Source: Saccoglossus kowalevskii
Lineage: Eukaryota > Hemichordata > Enteropneusta > Harrimaniidae
Assembly (NCBI RefSeq): GCF_000003605.2
Contig: NW_003107589.1
Coordinates: forward strand, 467,032-531,031
DNA: 64,000 nucleotides
Reading direction: 5' to 3'
Of the stretch, positions 34,301 through 62,105 are shown piece by piece. Made by a program: the position numbers and the translations under genes. The notes beneath the pieces were generated by a model. The model was given only the letters and a program-made list of their open reading frames with translations. It ran no database searches and had not been told where the DNA came from. Each line of letters begins with the position of its first letter. Position 1 is the stretch's first letter.

Positions 34301-37300
34301 CGATGTATCATAAACGATCATCATGGCAATGCTTGTCACATGCTGTGCTGATGGACATTAACGCGGGGACAATGCGTGCTGCGCATTAACAGATAGATGC
34401 GTGACATCGGGGTACTTCCAATACATCCAAATACTTTAAGTGGTTAATTACCTATGCGCCAAACTTCTATTGTGTATTTTCACATTTGACATAGTCATGT
34501 ATATTTTTTGTTTGTTTCCAGGTAACAGTTCAAGCAACATGCATTACTCTGACTGCCATGAGTGTTGATAGATACTATGCTATAGTGCATCCACTGAAAT
34601 CTCTGAAGACTCGCACTCCTAAGGTGGCCATTAGTGCCATTGCTGCTATCTGGTTATGTGAGTAAAATAATGAATAACGTCTTTCATCTTATCACGCTCA
34701 CAACTAATGGGTTTTAGTAGCATAGTTCGTATCCTGGTAACCACTCGAGATCTTAAAGATGAAACAGTGCTACACAGGTTTTGTGCGAACCTGGTCACGG
34801 GAAAGACAGTTACTAACTATTTTGTTTTACAAATATTGTTCAAAATAATGTTACATATGAAAATTCATACCTGAATTGTTTCTTCGTGGTCTTCCGTTTA
34901 GTGCCTGAAATAAATACACATTTCGATTCCCATCTATGTATTTTTTAACACAAACATGCAATTACAGGCTTGCTTGTAATATTTTTGAATATTTCTTCAT
35001 TTCTAAGCCTAGTCTAGACTGTTGTGAAAAGAAGGCAAATTTGTGAATATGAACCAACACAAGGTTACTTTGCCATGCAAATGTGATTAACGTGTTGAGT
35101 GAAAGAAAACATTTCAAATACATATTATCAGACCATAAAGACGAAAGTACAACATACAGTTCAACTTATTTAAAACATTAGAATATTTTGATTGATTTAT
35201 ATAGTCTGTTTTTCTCGTCGGGAAAATATGTTTTAAGTAGCATCAGTTAGCACATAATTGAATATGCGTTGGGTACTTTATTTTCCATGATGTTTGACCC
35301 GAAATGCTGTTTACTGGCCCATTTTATGAATCAAAATAATTACTTATATTTTTGATATGCTGCCATATTCTGCTTTTTGAATATAAATGAATTATATGCA
35401 TTACATATCATATTCGTGATGTATTAGCCAATTTATAAGTAGGAATATTGTGTATGACGCCATGCCAACACAATATGTATATAACAAGTTAACTGTGCAG
35501 ACCAGTCATTTCATTGTTATGTACATTGTTTTTCCCTATTATAATCATGGCACTGTTACTTGGGATGTTGGTATGAGTAAGTATTTACGACTACCAAATT
35601 AAACAGAAATTCGGGGACTGTATGGTTGCTGCACCAACACTAATCACTTGTTCAATGACTTGCCTTATGCATTAATGGGTTGAATACACGCACCTTTAAA
35701 CCGTCAGTAATCGAAGCTCTGATAAAAATAAATCGATATATACGTTTATTTAAAGAATTTGTTCTGATTTTTTCCCATTCGTGTTAGTGTGTCGTTTGTG
35801 TTTTTCTTTATATATAACATGCACAGTTTTTTTCATGTTCTTGTATGTATTGATCCGCATTCCAAGGTCTTAAACATGATATACGTAGTGTACGTGCCAG
35901 TAATAGTGGTTTGCAAGAAATAAGTAGCACACTTTCTGTGTACGACTTTCTAAATCCCGGGGATAGTGAGTAGCGGTTTTTTTTTTATTTTAATGATCAA
36001 AAGATGTTTTTGTGTCAATGAAAATACACAAACGCTCTGATGTACTACAACAAATGTAACTATGTTACAAAAACACGAGATACTATACTTTAAGACAAAG
36101 GACCACCATCGCCAAACCGCTGTACAAATATACTACGGCAAACAATATGAACATTATGGTGCAAAGCCTACATTGAAAACGTAGTATAAAATGGCTGCTA
36201 GGAAAGAATGCAAATCACAAGAAACTATTTTCTTTAAATTCAGATATGCGATTATAAATCGAGATGGCAGCGCACATTTCAGGGGGGCTGGTTCAAATGA
36301 TGAGTAAAAAAAAACATGTTTCGCCTTATTTACGGTATTCACATCCGTTGCTCATGAGAACAGCAAATTTAAATATAACAGATTGACCGAAGACTTTGTT
36401 GAAAATGCAATGTAAACGAAAAAATGGCGGGCATTTCAAAGATATAAAAATTACAAAAATCAAGCTTGTTTGATGTTCCGGAATTTTGAACGTGCACATA
36501 CATGCATAACAAGACCTAGATGTAATTTTTGTCAGGTTTAATTAAAACTGCCGACATACAAACATTTTAACGAATGGTGTTCCAGAGCCATGTTTCTGAT
36601 ATGCATGTGCCTGTAACACACAAACACGCATTGTATTTAAATTGTGGGTTAGCAGCTGCACAGCCAAATGTTTGGCATGTCATAACTGATTGCAACCACA
36701 TTTACAAAGCATGTCACACATATTGACATGCATTCGTTTCAAGTTCTGGTTTAATCTCGTATCCATGGTAGCAGAAATGCAGCCCGACATCGATACGCTA
36801 CTGGATATACTAGATCCCAAGCGTTGCGAAAAAATTATATTCATTATGGAAAATAACATTAAGTCTTTATGTGTTGAATGACTTCACTAATGTATCATAA
36901 ACATATGTACACACACAATCCAAGAAAATCCTGAAAAATGTCGAGATTTGAATTAAAAGTAATGACATGTTTTCGCTGTAGCACATGTAAACTGCTGTTA
37001 AATTATAATACTTGTAAATTATATTTTGACTCAGCGAATAGTTTTACTATAATTTTGTACATTAATTATTGACATTATATAATTGTATAATGCTCAATTC
37101 CTTTATAATAATACTAATATACTGTACACATGTACACTTGTCAAAACAAGAATTTTGATTGTTTTAGAATTACGGTATTGGTTTATCAAATCATTTTGGG
37201 CGTGATTGTATCTGCTTTGATAATTCGTTTATATATTTTAATTAAATATAAAATTATAACTTTCATAATGTGGTGTCGATTGTAGACTTAGAATGGAATG

Positions 37301-37989
37301 TGAATAGAAAATTTAAAATAACTTCAAATTTGTTTGTTTTTCACTAAATAGGTTCATGTATGGTTGCTGTTCCCGTTGCGATTTACAAAAAGATTGTCTA
37401 CTTCGAATGGTATGGTGTTCGTCCATTTTGCTTTGACGTTTTCCCCACGCTGCAATGGGACTTTGGATGGTACGTGTACACTTTTATTGCAGTCTACGCG
37501 CTACCAATTTGTATTATTACCATCTGTTATTCCAAAATGCTACGCCAACTATGGAATCAAGTAACCCCTGGGGAGGAGTCCGCTCATCATACACAAAGCA
37601 TCAAGCAAAAGAAGAAGATCACTAAAATGGTTTTCATGGTAACGTTGCTATTCTTCATCTGTTGGATGCCTATTCACATTCAAACCATCTGGACCAGAGT
37701 CGACACAGAAAGTTACCATGCTACAGAGAATGTATATTACTATCATTTATTTGCTAATTGCTTGTCGTATGCAAATTCTTGTCTCAATCCTTTCATATAC
37801 GCCTTTATGGGTGAGAACTTCAGGAAATGTTTTCGAAAAGTTTTCGCTAAGTGGTTCAAGAAGCATTCGGCAACAGTCGCCGCAGTTGGTCAGGGGCAAG
37901 GCGGAGTTGTAGGTAGCAATCTCGGAACATCGTCGATGTTGGCTCAAAAACAGGGTGATGGCACACTCGAAACCTCATCGCGTACATGA
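27982..37989 (+). CDS. KISS1R-like: Kisspeptin receptor-like GPCR (receptor A), complete, three coding exons
   Basis: Spliced as 27982-28332, 34522-34657 and 37352-37989, giving 374 residues. It is a class A seven-transmembrane receptor predicted in the plasma membrane; family members bind kisspeptin-type amidated peptides and generally signal through Gq. Visible hallmarks are N-glycosylation sequons at N10 and N17, GN-V in TM1 (G54-N55), LAISD in TM2 (79-83), C109 at the top of TM3 pairing with C189 in loop 2, D133-R134-Y135, W161 in TM4, CWMP in TM6 (266-269) and NPFIY in TM7 (308-312). The [14 protein letters not shown] block at the end of TM3 is what points to KISS1R/GPR54 rather than galanin or allatostatin-A receptors. 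The tail of about 50 residues is Gly/Ser-rich, with C322 as a possible palmitoylation site. The start is the first in-frame ATG, with G at -3. Ligand identity is inferred from family only. Its convergent paralogue lies at 59.2-62.1 kb. Confidence 0.88.
29540..29597. promoter_or_regulatory. Paired K50-homeodomain-type sites next to a full CRE
   Basis: GTGGATTAACC (29540-29550) and its exact reverse complement (29564-29574) flank a 13-base spacer. Each arm contains GGATTA, the core bound by K50 homeodomain factors (Otx, Pitx, Goosecoid). TGACGTCA, the perfect cAMP response element bound by CREB/ATF dimers, follows at 29590-29597. All lie 1.2 kb into intron 1. The motif matches are direct observations; enhancer function is inference. 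Confidence 0.4.
31411..31770. promoter_or_regulatory. CpG-dense intronic patch with TCTCGCGAGA motif
   Basis: Within AT-rich intron 1, CpG dinucleotides cluster strongly. TCTCGCGAGA at 31428-31437 is the palindromic promoter element recognised by BANP and typical of CpG-rich, TATA-less promoters. Further palindromic CpG blocks follow: GCGCG, CCGGCCG, and CATAACGCG at 31736 facing CGCGTTATG at 31752. This could be an internal or antisense promoter, or a transposon-derived patch. A 65-codon frame starts here (31420-31617), but its product is not recognisable. Confidence 0.4.
34522..34657 (+). CDS. KISS1R-like: Receptor A coding exon 2 (rest of TM3, DRY, loop 2, TM4)
   Basis: A 136-bp exon coding residues 118-162 plus the first base of codon 163. 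It carries VQATC at 120-124, the D133-R134-Y135 motif and W161 in TM4. It enters in phase 0 after a T-rich tract and CAG, and leaves in phase 1 at GTGAGT (34658). The receptor B equivalent has the same length, encodes the identical peptide and differs at only two silent positions. Confidence 0.93.
34658..37351 (+). other. Intron 2 of receptor A (2694 bp)
   Basis: Starts GTGAGT and ends in a T-rich tract followed by AAATAG. No embedded gene, RNA or element is recognisable. The sequence next to the splice sites does not resemble the corresponding intron of receptor B, despite the near-identical exon 2 beside it. Confidence 0.85.
37352..37989 (+). CDS. KISS1R-like: Receptor A coding exon 3 (TM4 end to C-terminus)
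   Basis: A 638-bp exon completing codon 163 (TGT, Cys) and encoding residues 164-374 and a TGA stop. It contains loop 2 with C189, TM5 (about 203-226), the basic third loop ending [10 protein letters not shown]6 with C266-W267-M268-P269, TM7 with N308-P309-F310-I311-Y312, helix 8 (about 316-331) and a Gly/Ser-rich tail. The receptor B exon has exactly the same length. By hand alignment without gaps the two share about 163 of 211 residues, with changes concentrated at the exon start and in the tail. Confidence 0.93.
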
Positions 37990-39004
37990 AAAAATTCGCA
38001 TTATTTTACAACACTCTATTCAGTCGGCTGCAATGCAAAGTGCAAATGTTTAACACGGAACTCAACACCAATTCGTCGCATTCTTAGTGAAGAAATGTTG
38101 ACCATACATTCATTGTTAACCCGGCGTACAGAAAACATATTCTCTATCATCGCTCTACCGCGTAAGAATGCAATGGGACGTCACACGATCCAGAATGTTT
38201 ATCGTAACGTTCCAAATGATACAACTTTTGTATTAAAAACAAATATATTTACTATATGTGTTTCTATTCTATATGGGACGTATACATGCACAGCTTGCAG
38301 TTTGTTCTACTATAACACTGTCCGGTACAAGTAGCGATGTACGCGTTGAGAAAACAAAACAAAACACACTCATTATACGTGCTTTCGCGAGTTTGGTATA
38401 TCGGTGTTCATCAATAATTAATAGTACTTATAACACACTATCACTTCGTGGTTTACTGAATAATGTTTTTATACAACAACTGTACCGTGTCTGTTTGGGT
38501 CGAATCTCAAAGCACGTGCAAAACTATATCGTGTATTCATGTATACGTATAATCATATTGTCGATTTCATGATTGCTTCAGACTGTGTATTACATGATAT
38601 TTTGTGTAGACACACAACTACCCATACCCATGTTTAATTGCTGACCATATAACGCTAAATATACTATACGTAATTTTTTTATTAACTGCCTGTGAAATAT
38701 ATATATTTCATACATTGCACTAGTGTTTAATTATTTTTTTTTTAATATGTCATGTTATGTTATGTTACATTCGAATGAAGTAGCGATACACAATATCCAC
38801 AACGTACATTAAAAATTAATTTAAAAACAATAGTATTATAATGCATGGTTAAACCAGTGAGAAATCGTATTAGTATGACCACATTTATAAGGTCCTTGGG
38901 TAGCCAGGCATTTAAATGCTCAAATGTGAATGTCAGATTTAGAGATATCTGTGTCACCACAAATGAGAACATAATTATAATTGAATTTTACCATGGCAAA
39001 TAAA
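37990..39004 (+). other. Probable 3' UTR / downstream flank of receptor A
   Basis: Non-coding sequence after the TGA. Possible polyadenylation signals are ATTAAA at about 38232 and AATAAA at about 38999. I cannot tell which, if either, is used. Open frames here are short and unrelated to any family I recognise. Confidence 0.4.
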
Positions 39005-39966
39005 TAACCTTTTCTAAATGTTTTGATGCGTCATGTTGGTTGAATTGGGATGTGGTAATTTATCGACATTATACATGTGATCGTTATACCAATGCTCCTG
39101 CTGTTTTGCACGCCATTTAGTATATTTTCAATTACAGTCACGTTAAACCACTTTCGACGTAACCACGGGAATCTGCAACATCAAAGCAAAACAACATCTA
39201 ACCAATACAATAGTGGGCAACGAATTAACGGAGATGAACATATCTTACAGAAAGAATTTTGAGTTTTAGAGCGTTGTTAACTGAATGATATTACATAACC
39301 AGAACTATGTATAAGCCAATGCCAACGAAATGGTGATGTATTTAACCCAGTAACTGTACAGTAATTATTAAAGCGTGCTTATATTTATTTACGTTTTTTT
39401 CATTTATATTTAGCATATAGCATATATTATACTACACCTAATACTGTCAATAATAGATTTGCAAACACTCGTACTAATATTATAAATAAATGAATATATT
39501 TCAGCAACCATTTTTCATCGCATATGAGATGACGCTTATTTTAATTAGTGGTCTGTCAGTAATGTGATTATTAAATGATTAATACTGTAACAAGAATAGC
39601 GCTCGTCTCGAACTTAACAATTTAAACACATAACAATTTAAATACGCAGTCAGATTCTGCGTAGCGAAAAGTCACAGTATACAAATGATATAGATACACA
39701 ATACAATTTTATCGGAGAATATAGATGCAACTCCCAGGACGTCATGTCATTTTTTTTCCATGAGAGACAGTAGTCATAATCCACATGTGACATTCACTAT
39801 TGTAATTTCGAGTCATAGTCAGGGAGTTATTATCAAATCAATCAGACAGTTAGTTAGTTTAGTAACATTGGGGGCACATGGGTGAATATCTTGATTTAAA
39901 ACAGATTACATTATTCAATTCATCAAATGTTAACCATTGAATATTTTGACATGACTGATTTTTCAG

Positions 39967-40039
39967 TCATCTAAGTGACTGAATGCATCGTTACGCAACA
40001 TACAGTGTGTATTGATGTGAATACTTGGAGTGGAAGCTT
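39967..40039 (+). repeat. Dispersed direct repeat, copy 1
   Basis: About 73 bp matching 41719-41790. Shared blocks are TCATCTARGTGACTGAATGC, ATCGTTASGCAAC, TACAGTGT, ATTGATGT and ATACTT followed by GTGGAAGCT. I count only about seven mismatches. The copies are 1.75 kb apart in the same orientation, which suggests an interspersed element or a local segmental duplication. Confidence 0.75.
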
Positions 40040-41718
40040 CAACAAATATGAATTAATAGCACTGGATAGATTAATAACACACATTTTAAGTCAGTATTAT
40101 AGACCCCACTAACACAAGCCGTTTCTAAACGTACGCCCTCTTGAGATAAACATTGGTCTGTATGTACTACATAAGTAAACCAACGTTCTGGTATCAGAAT
40201 AGAACAAGCGTACCGACAATTCAATCAACTCATTGATATTGAACAAAAATATGCCTTTTCAGGAGGACGATTCATTCAAAATAATGGCAGGGACATATAC
40301 TCCTTGTCCAGTAATTAACAGACATTACTTTGTGAAAGCGTACATATGGGAAAGTATGTAATATTGTTTTATAGTTGGCTTAGAAATGGGAAATTCTCTA
40401 CAAAAAGGTATGAAATATATAACCACATATGATTGTGTATGTTACCGCATTATATTTTATTGACAGTTATCGCACAATATGGTGAACTGATGTTTCGGAA
40501 ATTTACATACAAGAAGAAGAAAGCCGACATCCTCACACAAGTAGCGATTATATGAATGGATCGTTCGGAAAGGATAAAAGAATATAATTTTAAATTCATA
40601 ATCTTGTATAACATTAATATGTGAATTGATACCAATTCGGAGTTATCTGCGTTAGACCGTCGTTGATTTGATGAATATATATTTTATTTTGAAAAGATGA
40701 ACTTATAAATTATAAGATAAAAAATAGCATATATATGTCGGCAAATGAACCCCTGTATTGGGAATATATACTAACCTGTAAATACTTGCGGGCAATCCCG
40801 ACCCCAATCCCGCATTCACTCTTCATAAATAAATGAAACATTAAAGAAATTTGTTTATTAAAATGTTAATTTATATTTCCATGATAAGTCTATGATGATG
40901 AAATTCATGTGAGAGACTCTTACACAATATGTCTATCTCGGTAAACTCTTTACGGACATCAATGACGTGAAAACTGTTATATAAGTGGCGTTGGCATTTC
41001 TTCACTTAGCGTCAAATATGCTTTGGATCGGGGTTTTCTAAAGCAACAAATTTGTTTCTCAAGGTGATTTATATTAAAATATGCATCAACATGAGACATA
41101 AGACAATGCATCAACGTAAGACAATGAATATTGTTTATATATTGTTTTTTTGGTGATTTTCAAAAGTAAAATAACTAAACTGACAAAACTAATTTCTTAA
41201 ACAAGTAGAATTGAAACAATCGTAACCAGGTAAACGTAATTTCAAATATTCATACGCGAAAACGATGACTCATAGATTCACGCGTCCGCACCTGTATCTC
41301 AGACACATCAAATATTGTATTAACCAATATATTAATATTCCCACTATTTCAATCATGACATGTCCATCTCACAATGGAGATAAAAGGCTAGCATGCCCAA
41401 GGACACATGAAGCGCATCAAATAAGAACATTGTTATTTAGAAAGAAACACATCCCGTACTGTTCATTTAAATATATAATATATACTCTAAAAGGTCAGAA
41501 TATTGAATACTAGTAGTCGTCTTCATAATTTCATAATTTTAGTGTAACACGTCTATATCGCTGATATTTGTACAGTAAAACGGACCCACAGACACGTGTT
41601 TATGAAGTAAAATAAATGTAATTTCTAAAGCAATTTGTCAGATCATCTGATAAAATTACATGTTCGGGTTTCTTGTAATTGTTATATTGTGAGATGACCT
41701 TTTTTTGACGGTAACATT

Positions 41719-41790
41719 TCATCTAGGTGACTGAATGCATCGTTAGGCAACGTACAGTGTTTATTGATGTGGATACTTGTGGTGGAAGCT
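41719..41790 (+). repeat. Dispersed direct repeat, copy 2
   Basis: Second copy of the repeat at 39967-40039 with the same block order. Sequence beyond both ends does not appear to match, so the boundaries are reasonably sharp. Confidence 0.75.
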
Positions 41791-42124
41791 GCTACTTGTT
41801 TGCCAACCTGGATGGTTGGGGGTTAGATTGTTGAATATTTTAGTGCTTTTCAGCGTATGGCGTTTTCTTATGCGTATCATCGTATAGTTTGTAAGTGTAT
41901 CCTGTGTGCAAGTCTATTATCAGTTTATTTAGTCTCCCATGTACTGTAAATTAAAAAGCCATGATTTACCTGTTCATTAATTGAAAATTAATAGTCGTAC
42001 ATGAATTTCAAAGCATTTAACTATATACTTTGACAAAGTATATTTACACATATATTTGTAGATGTATACGGTAATACATACATTAATAAATTTGCTACAC
42101 AAGATGAAATGAAAGGGTAATGTT

Positions 42125-42163
42125 TGAACCAAGAGGTGCTTGCAAGAAAGTGAGCATATCCTG
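42125..42163 (+). repeat. Dispersed repeat, copy 2 of the 16985 family
   Basis: GAACCAAGAGGTG and TTGCAAGAAAGTGAGCATAT (followed by CCTG) match 16985-17033 in the same order, with a shorter spacer. The match is short and could be extended only by a search. Confidence 0.5.
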
Positions 42164-44574
42164 TCCTACTAGCATCACCTGTCATCGGAGTAGTCAATTT
42201 ATTACATTATAGATACAATGATTGATGTTGAAACAATCAGAGATCATCTGCCTAGGTAATTTGTAATATTTTGTTTAGGATGTCCACCATTGAAAAGCTT
42301 ATATAAAAATCCTTCTGATTTAACAATATTCTATAAAAGTTTCTCAAACGCATCACATTCAGTTCAGGCTCTAGTATATTGAACAAGCTGGGTAATGTAT
42401 GCACCATATGACTATAAATAAGGGGGAAATTGGTAGTGGTACAAATCATCACTTTGGTCATACATTTGTCTTGTATCTAGTAGGAAGGTTACGCTTAAAA
42501 TCAAAATCGAGTTAGTTATATACATATGAGATGAAAGAACTTGATTCAGTGAGTTCAAGTTCAGGTGAATATATCATAGAAAAAAGTGTAGAAAAATAGA
42601 GTATCAGTTATACCTGAGTTATGACCACCAGACTTCACAAAAAAAAGCACAAATATAAACACATCTTTTGTGTAGAACGGGTTTGCATCAGTTGTTAAAA
42701 TGTACTTGTATTGCGGTGATATATTAAAACTTGATATCGTTGAAGCGTAATTTAAATATGCCATGTACTATAGTGGGAAAGTAAAAAGTAACAAAATAAC
42801 CAAGGTTGAGATCTTTGAAAGTTCTTTGTTTAAACAGTTAGAACCTGTTATGAATCTTGCTTTATATGATGTTTTGTGCAGCTTAGCTATCCATGGAGCT
42901 TGACAAGTCATTGATTTTTTTCCAGAGCGGAAATCGCTAATGTTGTCTTGAATGACTAGATGTTTGTTAAAATGTCATTCTTGCTGGATGTAGACAGTTT
43001 GTAGGCAGAATTACTGAATGCAGCAAGAAACCATGTTCCTTGATTAAACATCATAATAATATCTCCTACAAACAAAGACAACAGTATTAGCAGCTTCATT
43101 ATCAGAGGTATTAACATATTTGTAATGAAGAGAAGAAAGACGTTTGCATGCTTCCAAATTACAAAATTTATATTAGGGCTTACTCCAGAAGAATGATTGC
43201 TGTGCATACTGCACCTCTAACAGCTTTTATTCATTCTAACAGTGTGCCAGGTTCAATCTTCTCCAATTTAGATCACTTATTAGCATACTTTTCAACACGA
43301 GGATTTTTTAAAATGACACCGCCAATTGATTTTACGATGCTCAATGGATGTTGCCACATGTCATTATTTTTTGAAGAACAAATTTATTTCAATCAATGTA
43401 CTATGCAGCCAATCGTTTAAATTCGTTTTTTGTATTAAAGTATTCATTGAAGCAAATAATATATTACGCATACATAGACAAAGGTTAATATTCCTTTAAC
43501 ATCTTCCACTCGACTGATCTTGTTTATGTCTCACTTGGATAGTCCGGTTATTCCATATTCTTTATGTCTAAAACAATTGTATTATTCACTATGTCCCAAT
43601 ATGATTACAGTTGATTTTTCGTATTATCACTCTGTCTCGAAAGATTAATAATACCGGATGATTGTATACATTAAAAAATGATAACTGAGATATGCAGTTT
43701 GCCCTCATACAAAAGCGACATTCATATACATATATCTGCATAAATCTGCAAATACCTCAAATAACATGAATATTAGAAAGCCGGCGTGTTTCAAATATCT
43801 ATTCTTAGTGTGGTAGTTTAAATTATATCTGATTTAGTCACGTGGCAGTGCACAGGCAACTTTTAGTTTTTTTAAATACGCTAACATATTTACAGTTCAA
43901 AAATAAAATAGGCAAAGTAATAATGTGAGTTATATCCTAATAGGATGTTCATGTTTTTTTAGACCAAATTTTATAAAGTGATGCTTTATAGATTTTTAAA
44001 ACTGATCGTTTTGGAAAATAAAAATAATAACAAATATAGCTACAAAGCAGCATTTATAATAAATATAATAAATACCTGGTATTAGATTAAATGACACATA
44101 ATGTGCATCGGAACACATAGCAAAAGTGTATGTAGTGTCTAATTTGCCTAGTGGATTTGAGGGCTGGGAAATTTTACTTATTTAATGTGACTTCACGCGC
44201 ATTCGACATGAATAGTTCATTGAATTTAGACATTGAACCAATGTAGAGGATAATCATTACGACCTAGTACGGAATGGATCATGTTTACAAATTTATTTTA
44301 TAGAAAAATTTTTAAAACATTTATTAAAGATTAGTTAATTGTGATATTTTTCAGCATGATTTAATTATTTTGTTTGATATTTAATCTTTGAAAATTAGTC
44401 CACGATTATGATTTATCTTCAACAAATATTACTTTAGCAGTATAGATGAATTGATTTAAAATCACTAGAATGTCGATTAATATAAACGTATAGATAAATC
44501 CGGAGTGCACGTATTCTTATACTTTCATTGTTACATCAACAAGCTGATACTGCTTTTTCACATATTATTTCACC

Positions 44575-45130
44575 ACTTTCGTTCAGTCTGTAATTCCTCA
44601 AGGCACAGTTCTAGGCCCTCCCTGTTCTCTTCAAACTGTTCGTTACTGATCTGAAAACAGTGAACACCCTTGCATGCCGATGACACAAAGATATATTCAG
44701 CTATTAAAATTAAAAACTCAGCTTAAGCATGATCTTTAGGAACTACAAAACATGTTTACATCCTGAAAAATGTAAGAAAATATTAGAAGAAGTGTCTAGT
44801 GAGAAGGATTTGGGTGTCACTATTGACTTTTCTGAGTATGCCAGTAACTTTGTCTTGCTATCAAACCACAAGTCGTTGTTGTCGTCGTCACACTTTTAAG
44901 TATAAAACAAAAATAATTTTACATCTATCCAAGGCACTCATAATGCCTCATATGGAATATACATCATGCACATGGTCTCGATACTCAAAGAAAGATAATA
45001 CTAATATAGAACGTGCTGAGAGGCGTGCAATAAAACTTGTTCCAAAAATACGAAACCTATATTATACTGAAAGACTGAGAAGCCTCAAACTCCCAATGTA
45101 TTTTATGATTTTGCAAACAAATTATTACTC
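44575..45130 (+). pseudogene. Decayed non-LTR retrotransposon reverse transcriptase (C-terminal part)
   Basis: Conserved RT landmarks occur in the right order with frameshifts and stops between them. VIPQGTVLGP (44593-44619) corresponds to the PQG-LGP block. LFKLFVTDL-like residues follow in another frame. ADDTKIYS (44676-44699) is the catalytic ADD box. SEKDLGVTID (about 44798-44827) follows. Last comes a thumb-region stretch in one frame (about 44918-45100) with SKALIMPHMEYTSCTWS and ERRAIKLVPK. That thumb signature is typical of CR1/Jockey-type LINEs. No endonuclease or 3' tail is evident, so this is a dead, truncated copy. Confidence 0.8.
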
Positions 45131-46188
45131 GATATATATATATATATCAGTATCACGACTAACATGGATTATTTGCGTAAAGAGCAGAATAGCCTACAGT
45201 GGCAATTAATAGTTTTTGTAAAGCTGGTAAAGCAGTTTTGTTCCGTTTATGTAGTATTATAACAAACGATTTGTTCTTCAATTAAAGTTATTATTCATAT
45301 AGTGCAAAGAAGGGAAATTAGCTTGCGGCACATGAAATGTGATTAACGATGATAGATCATTTTAAAATATGACTTGATGACACATGACATGTAAGTATAT
45401 ATAACAATACGTTATTTATTACGTTATTTAAATCACGTTACCTTATCTTTCTAATTCGTCCTTGCTTCGTGTAATCTAATTTACAGCCACGAATATATAT
45501 AAGTCTACCGTTACGTCAGAATTCACATCAGTGTTATCCGACATTTACTGTTTTAACAAGGTGAATTCGTGTACGATTCGTGTGAGTGAGAATATCCGTA
45601 TTAGTTTGCAGGGAATACAGAAGTTAGAAGGATTAATAGCTTCACCAAATGTTCGACACTAAAACTAAATCTAGTTTATGTGCGGAGATGATATAGTGCG
45701 GGACGCTATCGTTTGAACTATTTATGTGTCTGTTGTTTAACGTATTATGCATACTAATGACAGAAACAAACTGCAGTGTTACCTGATGACAAACGTGTAT
45801 GGCAATCTGAAATAGAGTAGATGATGTAGCAATTTGAACATAAATGTACATACGATTTTTGGAGTATAACTCTATTCCTGCGAATTGTGGGTACCGGACA
45901 TTATCTTTCATTATGATATAGGTTTCAAATCACAATAGAATTTGTATCAAGGCAAAGAGCCGCGTAGTTACTTGAATATAATACTATGTTTGCGAGGCAT
46001 GGTGTGATTCTGTTTTATTTAATAACATAGTGTAATAAGCATGCCCTGGACTCGTGTTTAGCAAAAACAAGCTGTTTTGAAATGGCGGACGGATACACCC
46101 AGAGTGAGCTGTCAGCTGCAAAACACAGGGAACTAACTCAACTCTAAGAGCTACGTGCGTTAGAGCTTTAAGCTACTACAGCAAGCCT
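45131..46188. other. Non-coding intergenic stretch
   Basis: Short AT-rich frames only. It may include the unrecognisable 3' remainder of the retrotransposon just upstream. Nothing else is supported. Confidence 0.45.
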
Positions 46189-46930
46189 CAGAAGTATTGG
46201 AGCAGCCAATTTGCAAAATGGCTGGCGAAATGGCTATATATATGGATTTTGACTAAACAGTTGGCTTTCGAATATCGCTGGCGCCGACTCGTGGTCGCAT
46301 CCACTCTGGGCGAGTCTATATTGCATTAGGGGACATAGAATACTTTTCCGTAGGCTGGTTCATGTCTTAATTTTCCTGAATGATTTACATTCGCGAGACG
46401 TGATAATTTAGAAGTAGTTTCTCTGGTCAGACTGAGAATTACCACAGTCAAATGGCGTACAAGTGACAATATGATAATGCGATTAATTCACTGATATTCA
46501 CTATATGGGGGTAGCCATCTTGAACACTGCTTGAAACTGAATAAAGAGACAAGTTGGGAAATAGTTTCCTACAAATCAGGGAATAGCAAACTTTCACATT
46601 CAAATGATCCGTTGAGGTAACATTAAGCCTACATTAAGTCTACCTCATTCGTCGTTTTTGCGTGGACTATCCCTTGTATACGAACACCTTATTACACGAA
46701 GATCATAAAACACTTTCCCTGGTATATTTGAAAGCGAAATCGCCATCCAACTGAAAGACCGTCGCTGATTAGCTCTTAAAGTATGACGACCGTCTTCTAC
46801 TGTTATATAGTTACACCCAGAGTGGACGTGGCCACAAGACGGCGCCAACGAGATTCGAAAGCCATCTGTTTAGTCAAAACCAAAACAGTTCGCTAGCGAT
46901 TTTCTAAATTGGCTGTCCCAATACTTACTG
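46189..46930. mobile_element. Element with ~130-bp inverted arms
   Basis: The left arm (about 46189-46322) and right arm (about 46801-46930) are inverted copies. Shared blocks, read on the left arm, are AGTATTGG, CAGCCAATTT, TTTTGACTAAACAG, TGGCTTTCGAAT, GCTGGCGCCG-like and CCACTCTGGG. I estimate 75-80% identity, with one arm carrying small indels. The ~480-bp centre has no coding frame of note. It could be a non-autonomous DNA transposon with long terminal inverted repeats or two opposed copies of one short repeat. No clear target-site duplication was found. Confidence 0.65.
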
Positions 46931-48784: not shown

Positions 48785-49260
48785 TTCCGACCGCTCTTAT
48801 CCGGTTTAAGCTGGAATAATTATTGTAATATGATCCTATAATTGTGGCTGGGGGATAGTACAAAACAAAATATATGATCATGCCGCAAGAAATAGAAGAC
48901 AAACCATCTTTTCATAACCTTCTCAGTTTGAGCTGGATTAATTTTCTGCAACATGATACTGATTACTGTCTGGTTGTGCAGTGTTTTTTATACTATCAAC
49001 GTCTAGGGAGAAATACAGGACATGATCGCTCGAAGTAATATGTTTCCGTGTCAGCTGGATTACTTTATAGTAACAAGTTTCCTGTTTTGTTTAGGTGTAC
49101 ATGATATGAATATATGCTCTTGTTAGGGGAAGAGGAGACTCGATTCCCTCTCCTGATCAGTGCAAATTTTGGTTTCTGTTGGATTGATTCATAGTAACAC
49201 GATACACACCACTGTCTGATTGTGCCATGTAGGGTGTGATCATATATGATAGTATATTAT
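48785..49260 (+). repeat. Degenerate ~122-bp tandem repeat, four units
   Basis: The core AGCTGGATTAATT-like motif recurs at 48809, 48931, 49053 and (as TGTTGGATTGATT) 49177, giving periods of 122, 122 and 124 bp. Each core is followed by TTNTNGTAACANGAT-like sequence. Units 2 and 4 also share ACTGTCTGRTTGTGC, and GATCATATATGA/ATATGATCATG blocks recur. Units are well diverged, but the period is regular, so this is an old satellite-like or minisatellite array. Confidence 0.7.
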
Positions 49261-52497: not shown

Positions 52498-53110
52498 TTA
52501 AGTCATAATTCTAGCAGCTTGATATATACAAAATGACTGGTCAATAAGGATCTCATCAGTCAGTAGGCATGGGCTTCTGTAATGATTGATGGTCTTGTGT
52601 AATTTGTAAACGTGGCCATTTTGAAGCACGAACATTGTAACGGATTTTTTGCAATCAAAATCTAAAGGCCAGACAATTGGCTTGTTCCTAGTTGCTTTAC
52701 AAATCACTTCTCGCACACCCGTTTGTAGATCTGAACCTGCCTTGTCTGCATAGACATTATTATAAATGTGCACTACATCCTCTACAGAGATTCGCATTAT
52801 GTTGAAGTTCTAACTCAGTTTTTTAATCAAATTGAGCTAATTTGTTGACGGTCTCTCTTCCAGCCTGTAATTTGGCAAGTACAATTTTTGCTACTTGCTA
52901 CAACCGTTCTCTCCCAAATTCAGCATTTACTTGTTCAAGTGTAATACCTTGTATGAACCTATTTCACTTAAGTTTATTGTTCAGCCATTTGATGCTCAAT
53001 TGTACAGCATTGCCAACCTAACCCTTTTCAAATGTAGCTCTTTCATATTCTCTGTTGTTTAACCAATTTGCCCACCTAAATTTGTAAATCAACAACTGCC
53101 GGGTGTTTAT
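52498..53110 (-). pseudogene. Decayed coding remnant, unknown protein
   Basis: Read on the minus strand from about 53100, one frame gives long protein-like runs such as RWANWLNNREYERATFEKG, then QGITLEQVNAEFGRERL and KIVLAKLQAGRETVNKLAQF, broken by several stops. A shifted frame then runs open from 52797 to 52498 (99 codons), starting MRISVEDVVHIYNNVYADKA. The charged, low-tyrosine composition is unlike chance AT-rich frames, and continuity across stops suggests an inactivated gene or transposon ORF. I do not recognise the family. It could also be an intron-containing gene misread as broken. Confidence 0.35.
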
Positions 53111-53308
53111 GAATGCGTTTTAGAGCCTGTATTTACTATAAGAATAATTAACACAGGGAAACTCGTAGCTTCACTTCCTGATACTGAGTACGAATTACAC
53201 ATATATTTTATTTAACAATATACAGCATACAGTGTTTCCAATCATACACTATCCCGCTTCTGACATTAAATGTCACAAGGTCGGATCAATTATTAAGCCA
53301 AAGCACCC

Positions 53309-53371
<63 letters not shown>
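53309..53371. repeat. (AAT)n microsatellite, about 21 units
   Basis: An uninterrupted trinucleotide run of 63 bases. It translates to poly-Ile in one frame, which explains an artefactual open frame over it. Likely polymorphic in length. Confidence 0.97.
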
Positions 53372-53372
<1 letters not shown>

Positions 53373-56300
53373 TATGTGTGTGCTCTTACTAAGTTAATAA
53401 TTACACAATTTGTGTAATATAGGGTATTTAGACTGATGGTCACCAGTATAGTACAATTCAATTACATATAAATAGACATGAATGCACAGTTGCCAATTTT
53501 ACACATACGACGCCCAGGAATAACCATCATTTGTTAGGTAAGCCATAATTATGCTTGATAATCTTACCCTTATTATTGTTTGCCTCTGCAAGAGTTCAGA
53601 GATAAGCGCGACATTCACCATACACCAACACGGATATGGTTAGCCATAAAAAATAATAGATACTTTAAATTAAAAAGCATGGTATAATAAAAACCGTGTG
53701 GGTGCTGCAATATTTGCTCGTGCCTGAATTTCCAGACAAGTGTCAAGTTATTGCGCATGCTAGAGAAATACAGCAACCATCGTGAAGTTCACAAGTTTAA
53801 GTGTAGAAATTTACCTTCGCAACTGTATCCCCAGATTGCCTTTCGCATTACACGTCATACGTATATATATATTAAACGACGATTCCGGCTGTGGTAATAC
53901 GTGAATCCGCTTACCGCATTTCAGGGTTGCCCAAGGCGTGGACCCTCATTGTCAGTCAAAATCTTGAGAAGGAACCGTGTGGAACCACTCGGTTATACGT
54001 CAAATACTGGCCATGACATAACAGTATATTGTATCAATCTCTCAATGGTTGTTAACACATTCATCCTCCAGATTCCCATCAGACATTTGTAGGTATAGTG
54101 TTAAATATATTGGCTGTTTATGATATGATTAAATACATAAATAAATCTTTCGTGTTAAACATATAATCCGTTTTAATGAATAAATGGAATGTTTTTTTCT
54201 TGGCAATATCTTGTTTCTAATTGTCAAGCACTTCAAATGGTCACATTGGAAATTAGTGGCATTTACGCATTGAAACCAGCCGTAACGTTTTTTTCAATGG
54301 CAGCATCAAAACACCACTTTTATTTTCACAACCGTACACGAACCTTTTCACAGTAAAGCTTGGCGAATATAAGAGTATTCTTCAAAACCTCTTTCACAAC
54401 AGAATATGAAAGAGCTTAAAATAAGTTTCTTTATACCCTTTAGTAATTGGTATATCATAATGGTACTTCAAGTCACATAATGACGGACCTGTAATGGTGT
54501 AATGTGTAACGCGTCAATGTCCTTTGGTATTTTGAACTTAGCCCCTGCAAAGATAACTCTAATAGCTGCTCTGAGATGATGAGAATAAGTGGGTGAGTAC
54601 AATGAAGTATAACAATGGAAATAATATACACTGCCTTCATTGTGTTTATTAAAATGTGTAAATAACATATCCAATGGTAAATCTTTCTATAAAAGTCGTA
54701 TATAAAAAATTACAAATCCACACACACAAAACAAACGAAAGATATATGAACTCCACGGTATACATGAAGTGATGTCACATGTGTCGCCCGTAATATATCA
54801 TTCTGATGCATAATCAAATGGTTTCTGAATGAAATCTGATGTGGGTATCCGACAGGTTAGATTGATACGCTGTTGTTATTGGAAAGAAAAATGACAAAGC
54901 TAGTCAGCCTCTACTAACCCACAGTTTCAACGAAATAAGCCCGTGTCCTTAGATAGTTATGTACCTATTCAGAAAAATAAACGTTAATATCTTAAGACAA
55001 CTTTTTTATGACCCAGACATAAATATAACTTTATGTGGCGTTTTATGGGCCCATTATGAGTAACCAATACAATCTAGAAAATTCATCTTTCTCTTTCCTG
55101 ATTGGGATAATGGTGTAATCCATTATTTGTCATTATCGATGCGCATACACAGTTAGAAACACGAATATAAATAGAAACGTCGCACTGACTTTTTTATCTT
55201 ACAATATCAGAGATATCCCTGACAATATCTAAATATATATATATATCTGTCAGTGATTGCTTTTACAGTACAAAGGCCTTTTCGGGCCAATGTCATCGAC
55301 TGATCAACTGCTCGGAAACGTGGTTTATTATCTGCGTAGTAGATTCAAATGGCAGATGTAGGGATATTTTGAAGGAGAAACGTCACTTGAAACGAATGAG
55401 CGACTCGCCTCGTTAAAATCATAAAACGTACTGAAAACTATATACATGAAAATGACTCGAATAAAGATTGACATACATCGTATCGTAAAAACCGTTTTCA
55501 TGGGAACAATACATATACAGATAGCGTATATTTAGGTGAAACGTAAACTCTGTGAAGTTATTTAGTAGAAATATTTGAAATCACATTACCGGGGAACCGA
55601 GAAAACATATGCTTGGGCAAGACAATAAATGTCGCTTCAATGGGATGTAAAAGTGAATGAAGAGATTTTTAATGTCCTGTAATATATTGCCAATTTTCAA
55701 AATACAGTAAATAGTTAAGTTAACTATGTGAGTGAAGTTTTGCAATCGCACATGTTATATTATCAAAACGAATAGCACTGGTGTTGTCTGCACTCGACTC
55801 CCCCGAACATTACTAATATCCATTTGTTTCATACGATTATTAACACAATTCTCAACAGTATCTTTTAAAAGAAGGCGGTGATGGGCGATAATTTTATAAA
55901 GGTAGTCAATATATAAATAAACATTTCCTGGTACATATGTGGTTTGCCAGTAATGAGGTACTTTCAATTCATTTAAGACTTCAACGTTAGCTGAAGTACT
56001 GACCGCATAAATTAGTAAATCAATTCAAAACTATATAAAAAGATAATTTCAATTACTAGAGGCAATAAGGTGAGTTTGCGACATAAGTTACCCATTTATA
56101 ATCTATAATAATGCTAATTATTTTATTGCAGTAACTTGATTAAAGTATTGAAGACGTTGAAGAATTGGAACGTTTGTAAAACAACGATTAGTATTTATGT
56201 CCACTCACGTAATGTATCTTGACGCGTTTTTGAAGTTACTTTATAAGGTGATTTATGTTACCTACTAAGAACACTTCACATATGTACGAGGAATTCAATC

Positions 56301-57189
56301 AAGCTTAGAAACAATTGCCCTCATCGCATTTTCCTTGAGCAAAATATACTTTCGGAGATTGTGTTGATTCCATTCTGATGTTTTATTTTAAATAGGTTAT
56401 AATAACAGCAGTATGATTCTTTATTAATCGTATGATTCCATCCATCACGATGGTGCAGATGTCTTCATGTGACGTTATTAGGTTATAGTCGAGATTGTGC
56501 ACACAGAGAATCAAATGTAATCCGAGTCACTAAAACACGTTTACTAGTAACTGGTGTTGTGCTAATTAAATATATACATCAAAAGTAATCCCAGTAGACT
56601 GATGCATACCTTTATCAGTGTAAACCTGCCATGCTGTGAGTACACTTCACATACTTAGGCATGTTGCACAAACCACCAATACATATAGTCTGTACTGCTC
56701 CGCTTTGTCCATCTTTCTATTATCGAAAGGGAACTTTGCAACATTCCCATGTGTTTACCATTGATTACAATTGCTCTTTACATCTTTGTTTAGCGTCTGC
56801 ACTATACTGTAATCTGGCTTCAATTTTCTCGGATCAATAGATGCAGAATATTTATATGTTTATTTCATGCATTTGTCTTCACTATTACAATTTTGAATTC
56901 TCTGTGGTGACGCTCTATGGCACTATTTAGAAATCCATTATTATTCAATATCAAGATTTGTCCTCCATATTAACCTAGCACGTCCAACGCAGTGTAATAT
57001 TCCCCATAACAAGTAATAATAATTTTAATCTTATTTGTACAGAGAAACAGATTTAGCAGATAATGGCTGAAAACATCAACATCCAGGATTGATTTAGTGA
57101 AAAATATTGAAATCATTCAATAAATCCGGTATTGTATGATCATGCATTAAATAACGTGCATAAATAATTAAATCAGTTTGGAGGGGGGG
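53372..57189. other. Non-coding intergenic stretch
   Basis: No gene supported in about 3.8 kb. It contains a short (AT)n run near 55230. Other frames are short and featureless. Confidence 0.5.
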
Positions 57190-57715
57190 GTATTAGCTCG
57201 TCTAACAGAACAGCACAACTAGCTGCTTCGGTTGGCGGGTGCAACGGGCAAGATAACGTCACTGTTTTGTGGCGTAATTACTTCACTGATTTACTGCCTT
57301 CTGTGAACGATAACAATAATGAAACCTATGAGAAGTCTGGAATATCGGATATTGCATTTGAACACGGTATGATTGTTGCTACATCAGAAATCAAAAGTGT
57401 TATTAAAAAATAAGTATGGGTAAATCAGCAGGGTCTGATGGTATAGTTGCAGGGCATTTGATGTATTCTCGTACTATCCTCTCATACCATGTCTTGCTGT
57501 CGTTATTGCTCACTATGAGTGACGTTCGTGAATATTTGCCTCAGCTAATGTTAGACACTGCATTGGCTCCAATTGTAAAGAATACGTCTGTAGATACTAG
57601 TAATTCTAGATTATATGAAGTTATCATTTTGACTAGCTGTGATATGTGTTTGGAAACTAGTGACCATCAATTTGGGTTTAAAGAAAGTTACTCAACTGTG
57701 TATGTTTTATGTTAA
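57190..57715 (+). pseudogene. Decayed non-LTR retrotransposon reverse transcriptase (N-terminal part)
   Basis: In one frame about 57220-57410 reads VGGCNGQDNVTVLWRNYFTD and later ATSEIKSVIKK, the linker upstream of the RT domain. After a one-base-type shift, 57416-57715 reads GKSAGSDGIVAGHLMY, then LPQLMLDTALAPIVKN and HQFGFKESYSTVYVLC. These match the K-GxDGI, P-x-L-x-P-I-x-K and QFGF blocks of LINE reverse transcriptases. The YRPI-type block is eroded. A G8 run precedes it and it ends at a stop, with no catalytic ADD box downstream. It is a dead 5'-part fragment, of similar CR1/Jockey type to the copy at 44.6 kb but covering a different part of the domain. Confidence 0.78.
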
Positions 57716-58582
57716 AAAAGATTATTAATCTATATAAATATAATAACTGCCCATTTTTTTCTTTTTTTAAAATGCCTATTTTTTTACAATTAGAATATTA
57801 GTGTTCTAATATCAATATTATGTGTATGGGGATCCACTTCGTCCTCCACTGTGACGTACGTAATCAATATCTTCAAAACGAAAACCGAATTTCGTTGTGT
57901 GGCTATTTGTCATTATGAATACAATAAACAGATAACTTCAGAGCGCGACGGCGTATAAAAACACAGTATTAGGAGGCATCGTGGTAAAATGGCTTTGAAT
58001 CTAGACTCTGAAAATCGGATTGTCAATTCTGCAGTCGCGTCTGTACCATGTAATTATTCCCCTGAGTATGGAACTGCACTCTTTGAGCGTCTGAGCGTCT
58101 CCCCATCCAGCAGTAGATAGGTATGGTGATGATATTTAGCTAATGCTCCATGAGTTTACAGGCTACGATAGTGATGATGGTTTATGAATTGATTTGTATG
58201 GCCCAGTTACTAGGTCTAATATTGTAAAGCGCCTTAGCATTTAAGCAATTCCATAATATTAAAGCGATTCACCCCCCCCCCCCATCTAGAAGCTAAGGTG
58301 TAACACGCGGATGATCATGTTTAACTGTCAAAGCGTAAAATGAATTTGATTTATCTTATAATTTTTGATCGTAAATAATTAGTACTGATGTTACAATAGC
58401 AGTTGAAACATTTCAATGAAGCGTTAAATTTATTAAATACAAACGCCACATTGAGAATGCAATGAAAACAGACACAAAATGTATCAATATATATAGTTCC
58501 ATATGCCTCGCTTGGTTTCCTTTAACTTTCAATTTATCCACTTGTTTCAGAGATGTATATGGTATGTACAGAATATACACAC
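57716..58582. other. Flank of retrotransposon fragment with TATA-like box and short frame
   Basis: TATAAAA at 57954-57960 precedes an ATG at 57989 that opens a 43-codon frame ending with TAG at 58118-58120 (starting MALNLDSENRIVNS). A C12 run sits at 58272-58283. TAATATTGTAAAGCGCC near 58217 resembles the kind of tail seen on some interspersed elements. This may be part of a mobile element rather than a gene; the peptide is not recognisable. Confidence 0.3.
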
Positions 58583-58721
58583 TGTGTTTTGTGTTGTCAT
58601 GTTGTGTTGTGTGGTGTGATGTGATGTGATGTGGTGTGTTGCGGCGAGTTGTGCTGTGACTTGGTGTAATGTTGTACTGCTTTGTGCTGCCCTGCGCTGT
58701 GTGGTGGTGTGGTTTTGTGTT
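58583..58721 (+). repeat. GTG/TGTTG-rich minisatellite
   Basis: About 140 bp of strongly purine/pyrimidine-skewed GTGTT, GTGAT and GTGCT units, including GTGATGTGATGTGATGTG. The strand skew makes long open frames on both strands, which are artefacts. It lies about 480 bp beyond the receptor B stop codon. Confidence 0.85.
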
Positions 58722-59199
58722 AACATTATTTTTCATCGAAGTAATAAAACAATTTTACAAGACACAGTAATATTTTATGTTAACACAAACAATCAAATAA
58801 TAAAACACTTATCAATATTAAACCCACATATTACTGAATCGGTTGTATAACTTTTACGTGTGAAGTTTAGTATTTGAATTCCGAAATGGTACACGTTTCC
58901 TGCAGCTCTATCGCTATGCGATATTTAAGCCGGATCACTTTCTTCTTTGTATGACTATACACTGTGTGCACTGATCCGGTTCAGTTACTCAATTGACATA
59001 GATAAGGCATATACAAGTTTCAGTAGGGATCATTTGTATAGTTAAGATAATTACATTTAACATCACTTGTATGATGACATCAATGACCTACTGTTTAATA
59101 TCGATGTTTTATGCTTTGCGGCCTACGTGTGTCTTAAAAAGAAAACACGTTGTAGTACGTTGTGTCAGTTACGGTATTTGAAGAATATTAATTGTATCT
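58722..59199 (-). other. Probable 3' UTR / downstream flank of receptor B
   Basis: Non-coding sequence downstream of the receptor B stop on the minus strand. ATTAAA (plus-strand TTTAAT at 59094-59099) lies about 100 nt past the stop and is a possible polyadenylation signal. No other gene is visible. Confidence 0.4.
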
Positions 59200-59837
59200 T
59201 CATGTCCGTGCCGACGTTTCAAGCGTGTTGTTTCCTTGCACGGGCGCCGATGTCGACAAGGATCCAATATTGCTTCTGGCGATGCCACCTTCTGCTTGAT
59301 TCATAGTACCGACGGTCGCCGAGTGCTTCTTCAAACATCGCGGCATAACGCCACGGAATGATTTCCTGAAGTTCTCACCCATAAAGGCGTAGATGAAAGG
59401 ATTGAGACAAGAATTTGCATACGACAAGCAATTAGCAAATAGATGATAGTAATAGATATTCTCTGTAGCATTGTAACTTTCTGGGTCGACTCTGGTCCAG
59501 ATGGTTTGAATGTGAATAGGCATCCAACAGATGAAGAATAAAAACGTTACCATGAAAACCATTTTGGTTATCTTCTTCTTTTGTCTGAGACTCTGTGTAT
59601 GATGAGTCGACACCTCACCAGGTGTTACGTGGCTCCATAACTGACATAGCATTTTGGAATAACAGATGGTAATAATACAAACTGGCAGAGCGTAGACTGC
59701 AATAAAAGTGTACACGTACCACCCAAAGTCCCATTGTAGTGTGGGGAAAACGTCATAGCAAAATGGACGAACACCGAACCAGTTAATGTAAACGACTTCC
59801 CGGTATATGGCAACGGGGATTGAGACAAGACAAGAAC
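59200..59837 (-). CDS. KISS1R-like: Receptor B last coding exon (TM4 end to C-terminus)
   Basis: A 638-bp exon, the same length as in receptor A. The acceptor is GTTGCAG just upstream (plus 59838-59840 reads CTG). The TGA stop is at 59202-59200. The TM6-TM7 segment differs from A at about 8 of 204 bases, whereas the first ~28 codons and the last ~45 are much more diverged. Confidence 0.92.
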
Positions 59838-62105
59838 CTGCAACATAAACAATGTAACTTGTTATAACAGTGCCATAAAAAACACGACGCCGGTGTCTTT
59901 AATTTAAGCTACCGTTTACTTCCAGTGACACACATATTCTTATCTTATTTCAGCGTTTTACGTGTTTTACATTTAGCTGTATCCATGTTATGTATATCAA
60001 CAATATACACAGTGTGTAGTGTCACGTTGTACAATGTCATACTTATTCGGTTCTGCACTTCAATCCCATAATGCAGTATTATATTTGGTAGAAGATTATA
60101 CCTAAATAAAGTCATATTGTTTCCAAGTTGAGGTAACATGAATGAGATACTATTTTTCACACTTCTAACATAAAATCCGGATTCACAATATATTGCTTTA
60201 TATTAAGATTTCCACGGGGATTTGGGGTTGCATTTGTGTAACCTGGCATTCAGATATATTTTCGGGGCTTGCAATATGTAGTACGCGTTCGATTTCAATT
60301 CTTAGGTATGAAAACGCATTGCATGACAAAATTTAGTATATTTCAACTAAGTGGCGATAAAATCGCAAAGCATTTGTATGATAGCAAGACCAAATCGGCA
60401 GTTTTCACGAGAACACGTCCCCAAGTATGATGCTTTTAGTTTAGTTGTGATTGTGATTTGTGAAACAGAACTAGACAGCAGACTAAGCGAGTGGCAATGA
60501 TGGACGCAATGATGACGTAACGTATTCGAGTCGTATACTCTGTAGCAAGGAACGTCCACGTCGTGGTGTGAAGTTTTTTTGCAAATGCGTTAAAATATTA
60601 ACAATGTTTGCAATAATAGTTAATACTAGAAATAAAATAATTATTATTGCTTTACAAGGTTTACCTGTTTTCAAATTGATCGATTGATCACACAACCGCG
60701 AACACCATTAACAGTGCTCCTAGTTGCATGTTATCAATGTCGTTAGATATTTATACCAGTTTACACACTTCAGTTTCATGTCACAATGCTGTCAGATGGA
60801 TTGTCTCCATAATAATCATTGCTTGCTAATTTGCAGCAATGTGACGAAGTTTCGTGATAATGCATGTGGTTAATTTAGTTGTGGCCACATCTAATGTTTC
60901 ACGTCATGATTTTATTTCACCGCATTCTAGAGCTACGCTACATGCTGTTAAATCGTATCGGGGTTTCAGATCGTGTTACAGTGATCAGTGAGCGTACGAA
61001 ATTTATGTGAGCACCGCTGTGAATTATAAGGGTCATTGCAGAGTATATTCTCATATCACGTTTCAAAAATGATGCCTTATCTTGCAGACATGGGTGAAGA
61101 AATCAGCGTACTAGGTTACGTTATGATGAGACACGTTTTGAAGAAATGACTCGACTTCAATCAAACACATTAAGCCGTATACAGACATGTACAACTAAAA
61201 AGAAAGGGTGGTAAAGCCGTATATTGATGCGTTCTGTGCTGTCTCATTAAATCAGGATGGAGTGATATAACAACAATCATTTATAAATATAACCACATAA
61301 AGATGATCAAATCTTACTGAAATGTTGGTTTTCATACAATTGTGTGGGCAAAGTGACCACATATAATGCGATGCGAAAACTAAGGATAGAGTAGTCGCCA
61401 TTTCGTCGTTCTAATCCTAGATAATTTGGACATACGACGCACACTATTATAGGAAATGACACATAAAATCATTAGTAATACACCGCCAGAGAGAAACGTA
61501 GCCTTCCTGGAATGCGACGTATTTGATATTTTGCCATGAGCCCGGTAAATTGTCATATTGTACTGTAATCCCTGAGGTTCGCTTGACAAAAATGAATTTT
61601 AATAGATGACGCCTTTTGAAGACATCGTCGCAACCCCGCGTCCGTCTTTTTTTTACTTGCAAGTGGAACTGTTTTATTAACAATAAAAATCGGGAAAAAA
61701 TAATAAGGCTGAAACATGCATGTACTTCGACTCATTGCATATTCTGCATCCGGGGTTTGAATTCAGATTCATTGTAAATTGCTCAAGTACTACGTATACG
61801 TACTTGAGTTAGACCGGTGTTATATTGCAGACAAATGACATCGTACAACGCATTGAAGTGACAATATTAAGCAAAATATAAACCCTGATCTTGTTCATAA
61901 CTAATTTATTGACAATTTATACTGACAATATCGACAGTATACAACGCCACACATCATCACTGTACTTACATAACCAGATAGCAGCAATGGCACTAATGGC
62001 CACCTTAGGAGTGCGAGTCTTCAGAGATTTCAGTGGATGCACTATAGCATAGTATCTATCAACACTCATGGCAGTCAGTGTAATGCATGTCGCTTGAACT
62101 GTTAC
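59200..62105 (-). CDS. KISS1R-like: Kisspeptin receptor-like GPCR (receptor B), partial: last two coding exons
   Basis: Minus-strand gene with coding exons 62105-61970 and 59837-59200; the first exon is missing. The 257 visible residues cover TM3 from VQATC through the C-terminus. DRY, the loop 2 Cys, CWMP in TM6 and NPFIY in TM7 are all present and no reading-frame defect is seen, so the gene looks functional. It is a paralogue of receptor A (same exon lengths, same intron phases). Differences include an N-glycosylation sequon NAT in extracellular loop 3 (A has HAT), Cys instead of Arg after SKML in TM5/loop 3, and a rearranged helix-8 end ([14 protein letters not shown], so the candidate palmitoylation Cys is displaced). 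Receptor A's intron 1 is 6.2 kb, and only 1.9 kb remains to the window edge, so exon 1 probably lies outside. Ligand preference may differ from A. Confidence 0.88.
59838..61969 (-). other. Intron of receptor B (2132 bp)
   Basis: Minus-strand donor GTAAGT (plus 61964-61969) and acceptor CAG at 59838. No embedded gene or repeat is recognised. Its ends do not resemble the corresponding receptor A intron. Confidence 0.85.
61970..62105 (-). CDS. KISS1R-like: Receptor B internal coding exon (TM3-TM4)
   Basis: A 136-bp exon, phase 0 in and phase 1 out, with an acceptor read as CCCCAG and a GTAAGT donor. It encodes the same 45 residues as receptor A exon 2. The two nucleotide differences are silent (Ala GCG versus GCA, Thr ACA versus ACT). 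Confidence 0.93.

Follow-up and report, generated by a model that had tools for sequence, protein, structure and literature searches.

Mosaic identity between two inverted kisspeptin-receptor-type genes of Saccoglossus kowalevskii probably reflects patchy gene conversion

The window, a 64,000-nucleotide stretch of Saccoglossus kowalevskii DNA, contains two genes, here called A and B, which judging from their sequence look like old GPCR paralogues of the kisspeptin-receptor type. Their coding sequences are nearly identical in patches and no homology is left between their introns; both observations are direct. The explanation that fits best, and that we consider probable, is patchy gene conversion between A and B where islands of homology remain. 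From this pattern we infer that conversion took place, as well as its direction, its date and the way heterology limits it. The evidence comes from one sequence pair.

The genes are inverted and convergent (tail-to-tail), and about 21 kb separates their stop codons. Transmembrane segments were placed by alignment to KISS1R and from general GPCR anatomy. The following features are used below:

27982..28332, forward strand: coding part of gene A exon 1, TM1 to the start of TM3, supported by ORF, Pfam 7tm_1 and splice sites
34522..34657, forward strand: gene A exon 2, spanning TM3-DRY-ICL2-TM4 and almost the same as exon 2 of gene B
37352..37989, forward strand: gene A exon 3, end of TM4 to the C terminus and stop, phase-1 junction
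37354..37398, forward strand: stretch immediately past the exon 2/3 junction (codons 47-61), highly diverged, with 27/45 bases shared
37630..37827, forward strand: low-silent-divergence tract of gene A exon 3, codons 139-204, TM6-TM7, 190/198 bases as in gene B
37828..37986, forward strand: C-terminal tail (codons 205-257), highly diverged, with 93/159 bases shared
59200..59837, reverse strand: gene B exon 3, frame intact through the stop
59362..59559, reverse strand: counterpart low-divergence tract of gene B exon 3, matching codons 139-204
61970..62105, reverse strand: exon 2 of gene B, almost the same as its gene A counterpart

The start codon of gene A is presumably the first Met of the open frame, and a phase-0 donor, GTAAGT at 28333, closes exon 1. 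The introns flanking exon 2 of this gene measure 6,189 and 2,694 bp, with junctions 28332/34522 in phase 0 (TM3) and 34657/37352 in phase 1 (TM4). Intron 1 of gene A and intron 2 of both genes are canonical GT..AG introns, and the intron evidence for gene B consists of the acceptor of intron 1 and the complete intron 2. No exon 1 of gene B was found in the window by tblastn. It may lie outside, as the window extends only 1.9 kb upstream of gene B exon 2 and intron 1 of gene A spans 6.2 kb.

Pfam 7tm_1 scored above the cut-off in all three pieces scanned (exon 1 and exon 3 of gene A, exon 3 of gene B). The best solved-structure match of gene A was KISS1R (E 3.7e-71; a comparison with PDB chains only, with no tree), the runner-up molecule among the PDB chains was galanin receptor 1 (E 1.7e-56), and KISS1R was likewise the top solved-structure match of exons 2-3 of gene A alone. 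This closeness was measured on gene A, to which gene B is linked by the 77% identity in exon 3. According to the accessible part of PMC9400282, kisspeptin-type receptor genes, those of Asterias rubens and of other taxa examined there, carry two conserved introns, one in TM3 (phase 0) and one in TM4 (phase 1), which were not seen in galanin and allatostatin-A receptor genes. The KISS1R match together with the TM3/TM4 intron phases leads us to the kisspeptin-receptor type; A and B look like such receptors by sequence and gene structure, and their activation by a kisspeptin-type peptide would be predicted.

Exon 2 of gene A (34522-34657, forward strand) and of gene B (62105-61970, reverse strand) match at 134 of 136 bases. 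Our re-count thus agrees with the initial annotation, which had reported near-identity with two silent changes: both differences, A/G at position 15 and T/A at position 27, are silent, and the two translations of 45 residues are identical. By Nei-Gojobori/JC, dS is 0.06 and dN 0 in exon 2, and dS is 0.78 and dN 0.13 in exon 3. The longest exact run in the spliced alignment is 113 bases (coding positions 28-140). Conserved degenerate codons are altered in 40 of 196 cases, divided into 2/43 in exon 2 and 38/153 in exon 3 (Fisher p 0.0024), and for four-fold-like codons only the numbers are 2/29 vs 29/76 (p 0.0015). Under an even silent rate exon 2, as a pre-named block, has a permutation p of 0.0019, and the chance of any 43-codon block anywhere being as low is 0.048. 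Without the C-terminal tail the contrast with exon 3 becomes marginal (2/43 vs 22/126 in codons 46-204, p 0.043). At residues differing from human KISS1R, A and B differ from each other at 0 of 19 in exon 2 vs 18 of 106 in exon 3 (p 0.07).

The introns around exon 2 had been described as not alignable, and the intron pairs tested are indeed at the level of shuffled sequence. Four 500-bp flank pairs were each compared with 300 mononucleotide shuffles; the three intron flank pairs were no better than shuffled sequence (p 0.55-0.97), and the 3′ flank pair gave p 0.043, uncorrected. Ungapped identity in the 60 bp flanking exon 2 is 21/60 on each side, and the introns and 3′ flanks of A vs B yielded no match with E <0.15. 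Comparison of the whole window with itself (E<=1e-6) resulted in five pairs, two of which connect genes A and B. One is formed by the exon 2 copies, with 96% over 156 bp and ends near the exon edges; the other, by the exon 3 copies, has 85.7% over 532 bp.

The coding alignment of exons 2 and 3 comprises 774 bases without gaps, 648 of them identical. Protein identity in exon 3 is 77.25% over 211 residues, matching the earlier estimate of about 77%, and this average hides very unlike stretches. The exon 2/3 junction coincides with a step from 136 of 138 identical bases in codons 1-46 to 27 of 45 in the next stretch, and dS beside exon 2 is 1.65 (codons 37-66) and 1.40 (codons 49-78). Overlapping 30-codon windows range in dS from 0.12 (codons 157-186) up to saturation in three windows from codon 205. 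The sliding-window dS proposed in the initial annotation thus showed an uneven exon 3 next to unalignable introns, and the uniformly low dS that a simple recent duplication would leave was not seen. Altered conserved degenerate codons number 3/57 in codons 139-204 and 35/96 in the remaining exon 3. Exon 2 (2/43) and codons 139-204 have an equal silent rate (Fisher p 1.0), and both lie below the other exon 3 codons (p 4.8e-5 for exon 2; p 5.7e-6 for codons 139-204, a tract picked post hoc).

A two-rate HMM (rates 0.05 and 0.48) improved on one rate by 2dlnL 17.6, a value attained in 0 of 200 permutations. Its low tracts are codons 1-46, 62-77, 86-94, 97-107 and 139-204, where the three short tracts around TM5 are weak, with only 9-11 informative codons each. 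Judged by the variance of 15-codon windows, silent changes are clustered in the whole alignment (p 0.0001 in free shuffles, 0.00025 within degeneracy class) and in exon 3 alone (p 0.00055, within degeneracy class), and the clustering is marginal when limited to codons 46-204 (p 0.043). We also scanned for fragments using our own GENECONV-like script, which is not GENECONV itself. At mismatch scale 2 the scan recovered coding positions 1-140 and 434-613 (both p 0.0002), at scale 3 positions 28-140 (p 0.0002) and 434-613 (p 0.0018), and at scale 1 a single fragment 1-613 with no significant second (p 1.0), which is a plain contrast of core vs tail. Among residues unlike human KISS1R, A and B differ at 3/60 in exon 2 plus codons 138-205 vs 12/35 in codons 46-66 plus 110-137 (p 0.0003; TM5 codons 67-109, with 2/29, omitted and the segments picked post hoc). 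Much of the contrast is carried by the tail and the TM4-end/ECL2 stretch. Given the scale dependence of the fragment scan and the marginal clustering in codons 46-204, exon 2 does not form a separate class.

Conversion is expected to leave paralogues with alternating tracts of high and low divergence, silent sites included, and the alignment displays such a mosaic, marginally so for codons 46-204 (p 0.043). With a dS of 0.06 beside diverged coding sequence and unalignable introns, the exon 2 copies seem to descend from a later common ancestor than the sequence around them. We suggest that the duplication was followed by divergence of the introns and 3′ flanks and, within the coding sequence, of the TM4-end/ECL2 stretch, the C tail and part of ICL3, and that conserved exon segments would have remained alike enough to pair. 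Short ectopic conversions could then have copied the sequence of one gene, or of an unseen third copy, onto the other, so that silent divergence was reset in exon 2 and the TM6-TM7 portion of exon 3, perhaps also in pieces around TM5. The tracts would end at the edges of exon 2 because the flanking DNA is without homology, with no recognition of exons by the machinery. The initial annotation had proposed exon-limited conversion between the inverted paralogues. Conversion stays the best reading, and the restriction to exon 2 is given up in view of the equally low tract at codons 139-204 and the weaker ones near TM5, so that this first explanation was probably right in kind and too narrow in place. 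Conversion mediated by cDNA is disfavoured, as the introns are retained and the identity goes no further than the exon 2/3 junction. An intron lies at this point in genomic DNA, and a spliced cDNA donor would not explain the step found there.

The short island, the inverted arrangement of genes more than 20 kb apart and a GC3 that is not raised count against conversion. Tracts down to a dozen bases are on record in the available text of PMC3409193. In the part of PMC3966223 at hand, intron divergence is described as a possible impediment to conversion, and adjacent inverted paralogues as able to convert. In elegans, as far as the accessible portion of the source goes, conversion declines with distance and may favour paralogues of the same orientation.

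Silent and protein divergence climb together along the gene, and constraint could yield the same. Purifying selection at the nucleotide level (splicing enhancers, codon use, RNA structure or an embedded regulatory element) might hold the silent sites of exon 2 and TM6-TM7 with no exchange needed, an explanation we find unlikely. It gains from the position of exon 2, which is short, internal and set between long introns, where exonic splice enhancers are plausible, and from the coincidence of low silent change with conserved protein segments. However, nearly all silent sites would have to be fixed in two separate segments, and splice enhancers usually lower dS only modestly. The splicing or regulatory code inside exon 2 that the initial annotation offered as its other option found no positive support: the RNA fold of exon 2, computed on the A copy only, has a z of +0.90 and is equalled or beaten in stability by 166 of 200 shuffles, no Rfam match at the gathering threshold occurs in the window, and each of the five other frames of exon 2 holds a stop. 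The A-copy fold and the Rfam scan of the window accordingly lend no support to a structured RNA or an RNA gene in exon 2. An overlapping reading frame is likewise unsupported, given stops in the two forward and three reverse frames; in one reverse frame the stop comes first and 44 open codons follow, an opening that we put down to chance.

Duplication followed by uneven silent rates and chance would place low rates in the 7TM core and higher ones in the tail and ECL2, with fast introns and exon 2 at the low end. The finding of a 43-codon block this low in 4.8% of permutations, the p of 0.043 for exon 2 vs exon 3 codons 46-204 and the scale 1 fragment scan, which separates core and tail only, are all compatible with it. 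We nevertheless hold it to be quite unlikely, since the overall clustering is strong (p 0.0001-0.0006, and 0 of 200 permutations for the HMM) and the stretch adjoining exon 2 is strongly diverged (dS 1.65 and 1.40). An assembly artefact, where the reads or gap filling of one exon 2 copy were used at both places, is very improbable. The longest exact run of 113 bases is short enough for short-read mis-resolution, but two differences and distinct flanks were kept, the window is without N, and low-divergence stretches return within exon 3, interleaved with differences.

Gene conversion itself is well described, and the A/B case is ordinary in kind. In the available text of PMC3728101, exon-restricted conversion is reported for GOT1Sd/GOT1Sr of the copepod Tigriopus californicus. 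Conversion there is largely restricted to exons and, as in A/B, goes with an intron too diverged to align; in contrast to A/B, represented by one sequence pair with coding segments among diverged islands, several populations were sequenced. The human pairs BMP8A/B, DDX19A/B and TUBG1/2 are similarly mosaic, with some exons concerted and others divergent, and BMP8A/B is inverted like A/B; unlike A/B, whose introns are not shared, these pairs were chosen for shared exons plus intron (PMC2720389, in the portion accessible). The Asterias rubens kisspeptin-type receptor genes have TM3/TM4 introns as in A/B and some lie in local clusters, and Branchiostoma floridae has an expanded set of such receptors; the accessible part of PMC9400282 makes no mention of gene conversion for either. 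Among the matches listed there was no published description of conversion in kisspeptin receptors, which is not proof of absence. Literature joining 'kisspeptin receptor' and 'gene conversion' concerned, in the parts available, LH receptors and thyrotropin subunits and receptors, and the accessible text of PMC4489612 and PMC4062910 contains nothing on conversion.

Raised GC3 was reported for converted mammalian regions, in the human pairs and not significantly in rodent Bmp8a/b, in the consulted portion of PMC2720389; GC3 is not raised in A/B. The values (A/B) are 0.33/0.35 for exon 2; in exon 3 they are 0.41/0.43 for the low tracts and 0.43/0.49 for the high ones, and exon 1 of gene A (28084-28332) has 0.51. 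This common but not obligatory mark of conversion is thus absent from the low tracts, and the trend in exon 2 is the opposite. GC-biased conversion was rejected for this reason. In gene A, GC3 of exon 2 is 14/43 vs 40/79 in the TM part of exon 1 (Fisher p 0.06).

If the conversion reading is true, segments of these genes have different histories, and dating invertebrate kisspeptin-receptor duplicates by whole-gene trees could mislead. The pair would, moreover, show cleanly that conversion can persist once intron homology has become unrecognisable, in an island of ~136 bp, shorter than is usually thought efficient. More speculatively, and doubtful in our estimation, recurrent very short conversions (islands of ~130-200 bp in inverted genes) might preserve a shared G-protein-coupling core (TM3-ICL2-TM4 and TM6-TM7) in the two receptors by domain-wise concerted evolution. 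The TM4-end/ECL2 stretch, the C tail and part of ICL3 would be exempt, so that ligand preference and regulation could diverge through them. In that role conversion would be a modular editor of receptor function.

Six peptide patterns for relatives of gene A exon 3 gave 45 matches in GTDB genomes and 4 in IMG/VR, with 0 confirmed in either. A tRNA scan of the window, which used the bacterial code, found none. Open frames at 44787-45209 and 57168-57715 resemble by eye pieces of LINE-type reverse transcriptase; the three frames scanned had no Pfam match at E<=0.001. An imperfect inverted repeat at 46192-46926, with arms of 88 nt (46247-46334 / 46792-46879, 81%) and 41 nt (46192-46232 / 46886-46926, 83%), is perhaps a small terminal-inverted-repeat element. 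Downstream of gene A lies a 77-nt direct repeat (39967-40043 / 41719-41795) whose copies are 88% identical and 1752 bases apart, and a perfect AAT microsatellite of ~20.7 units occupies 53309-53370.
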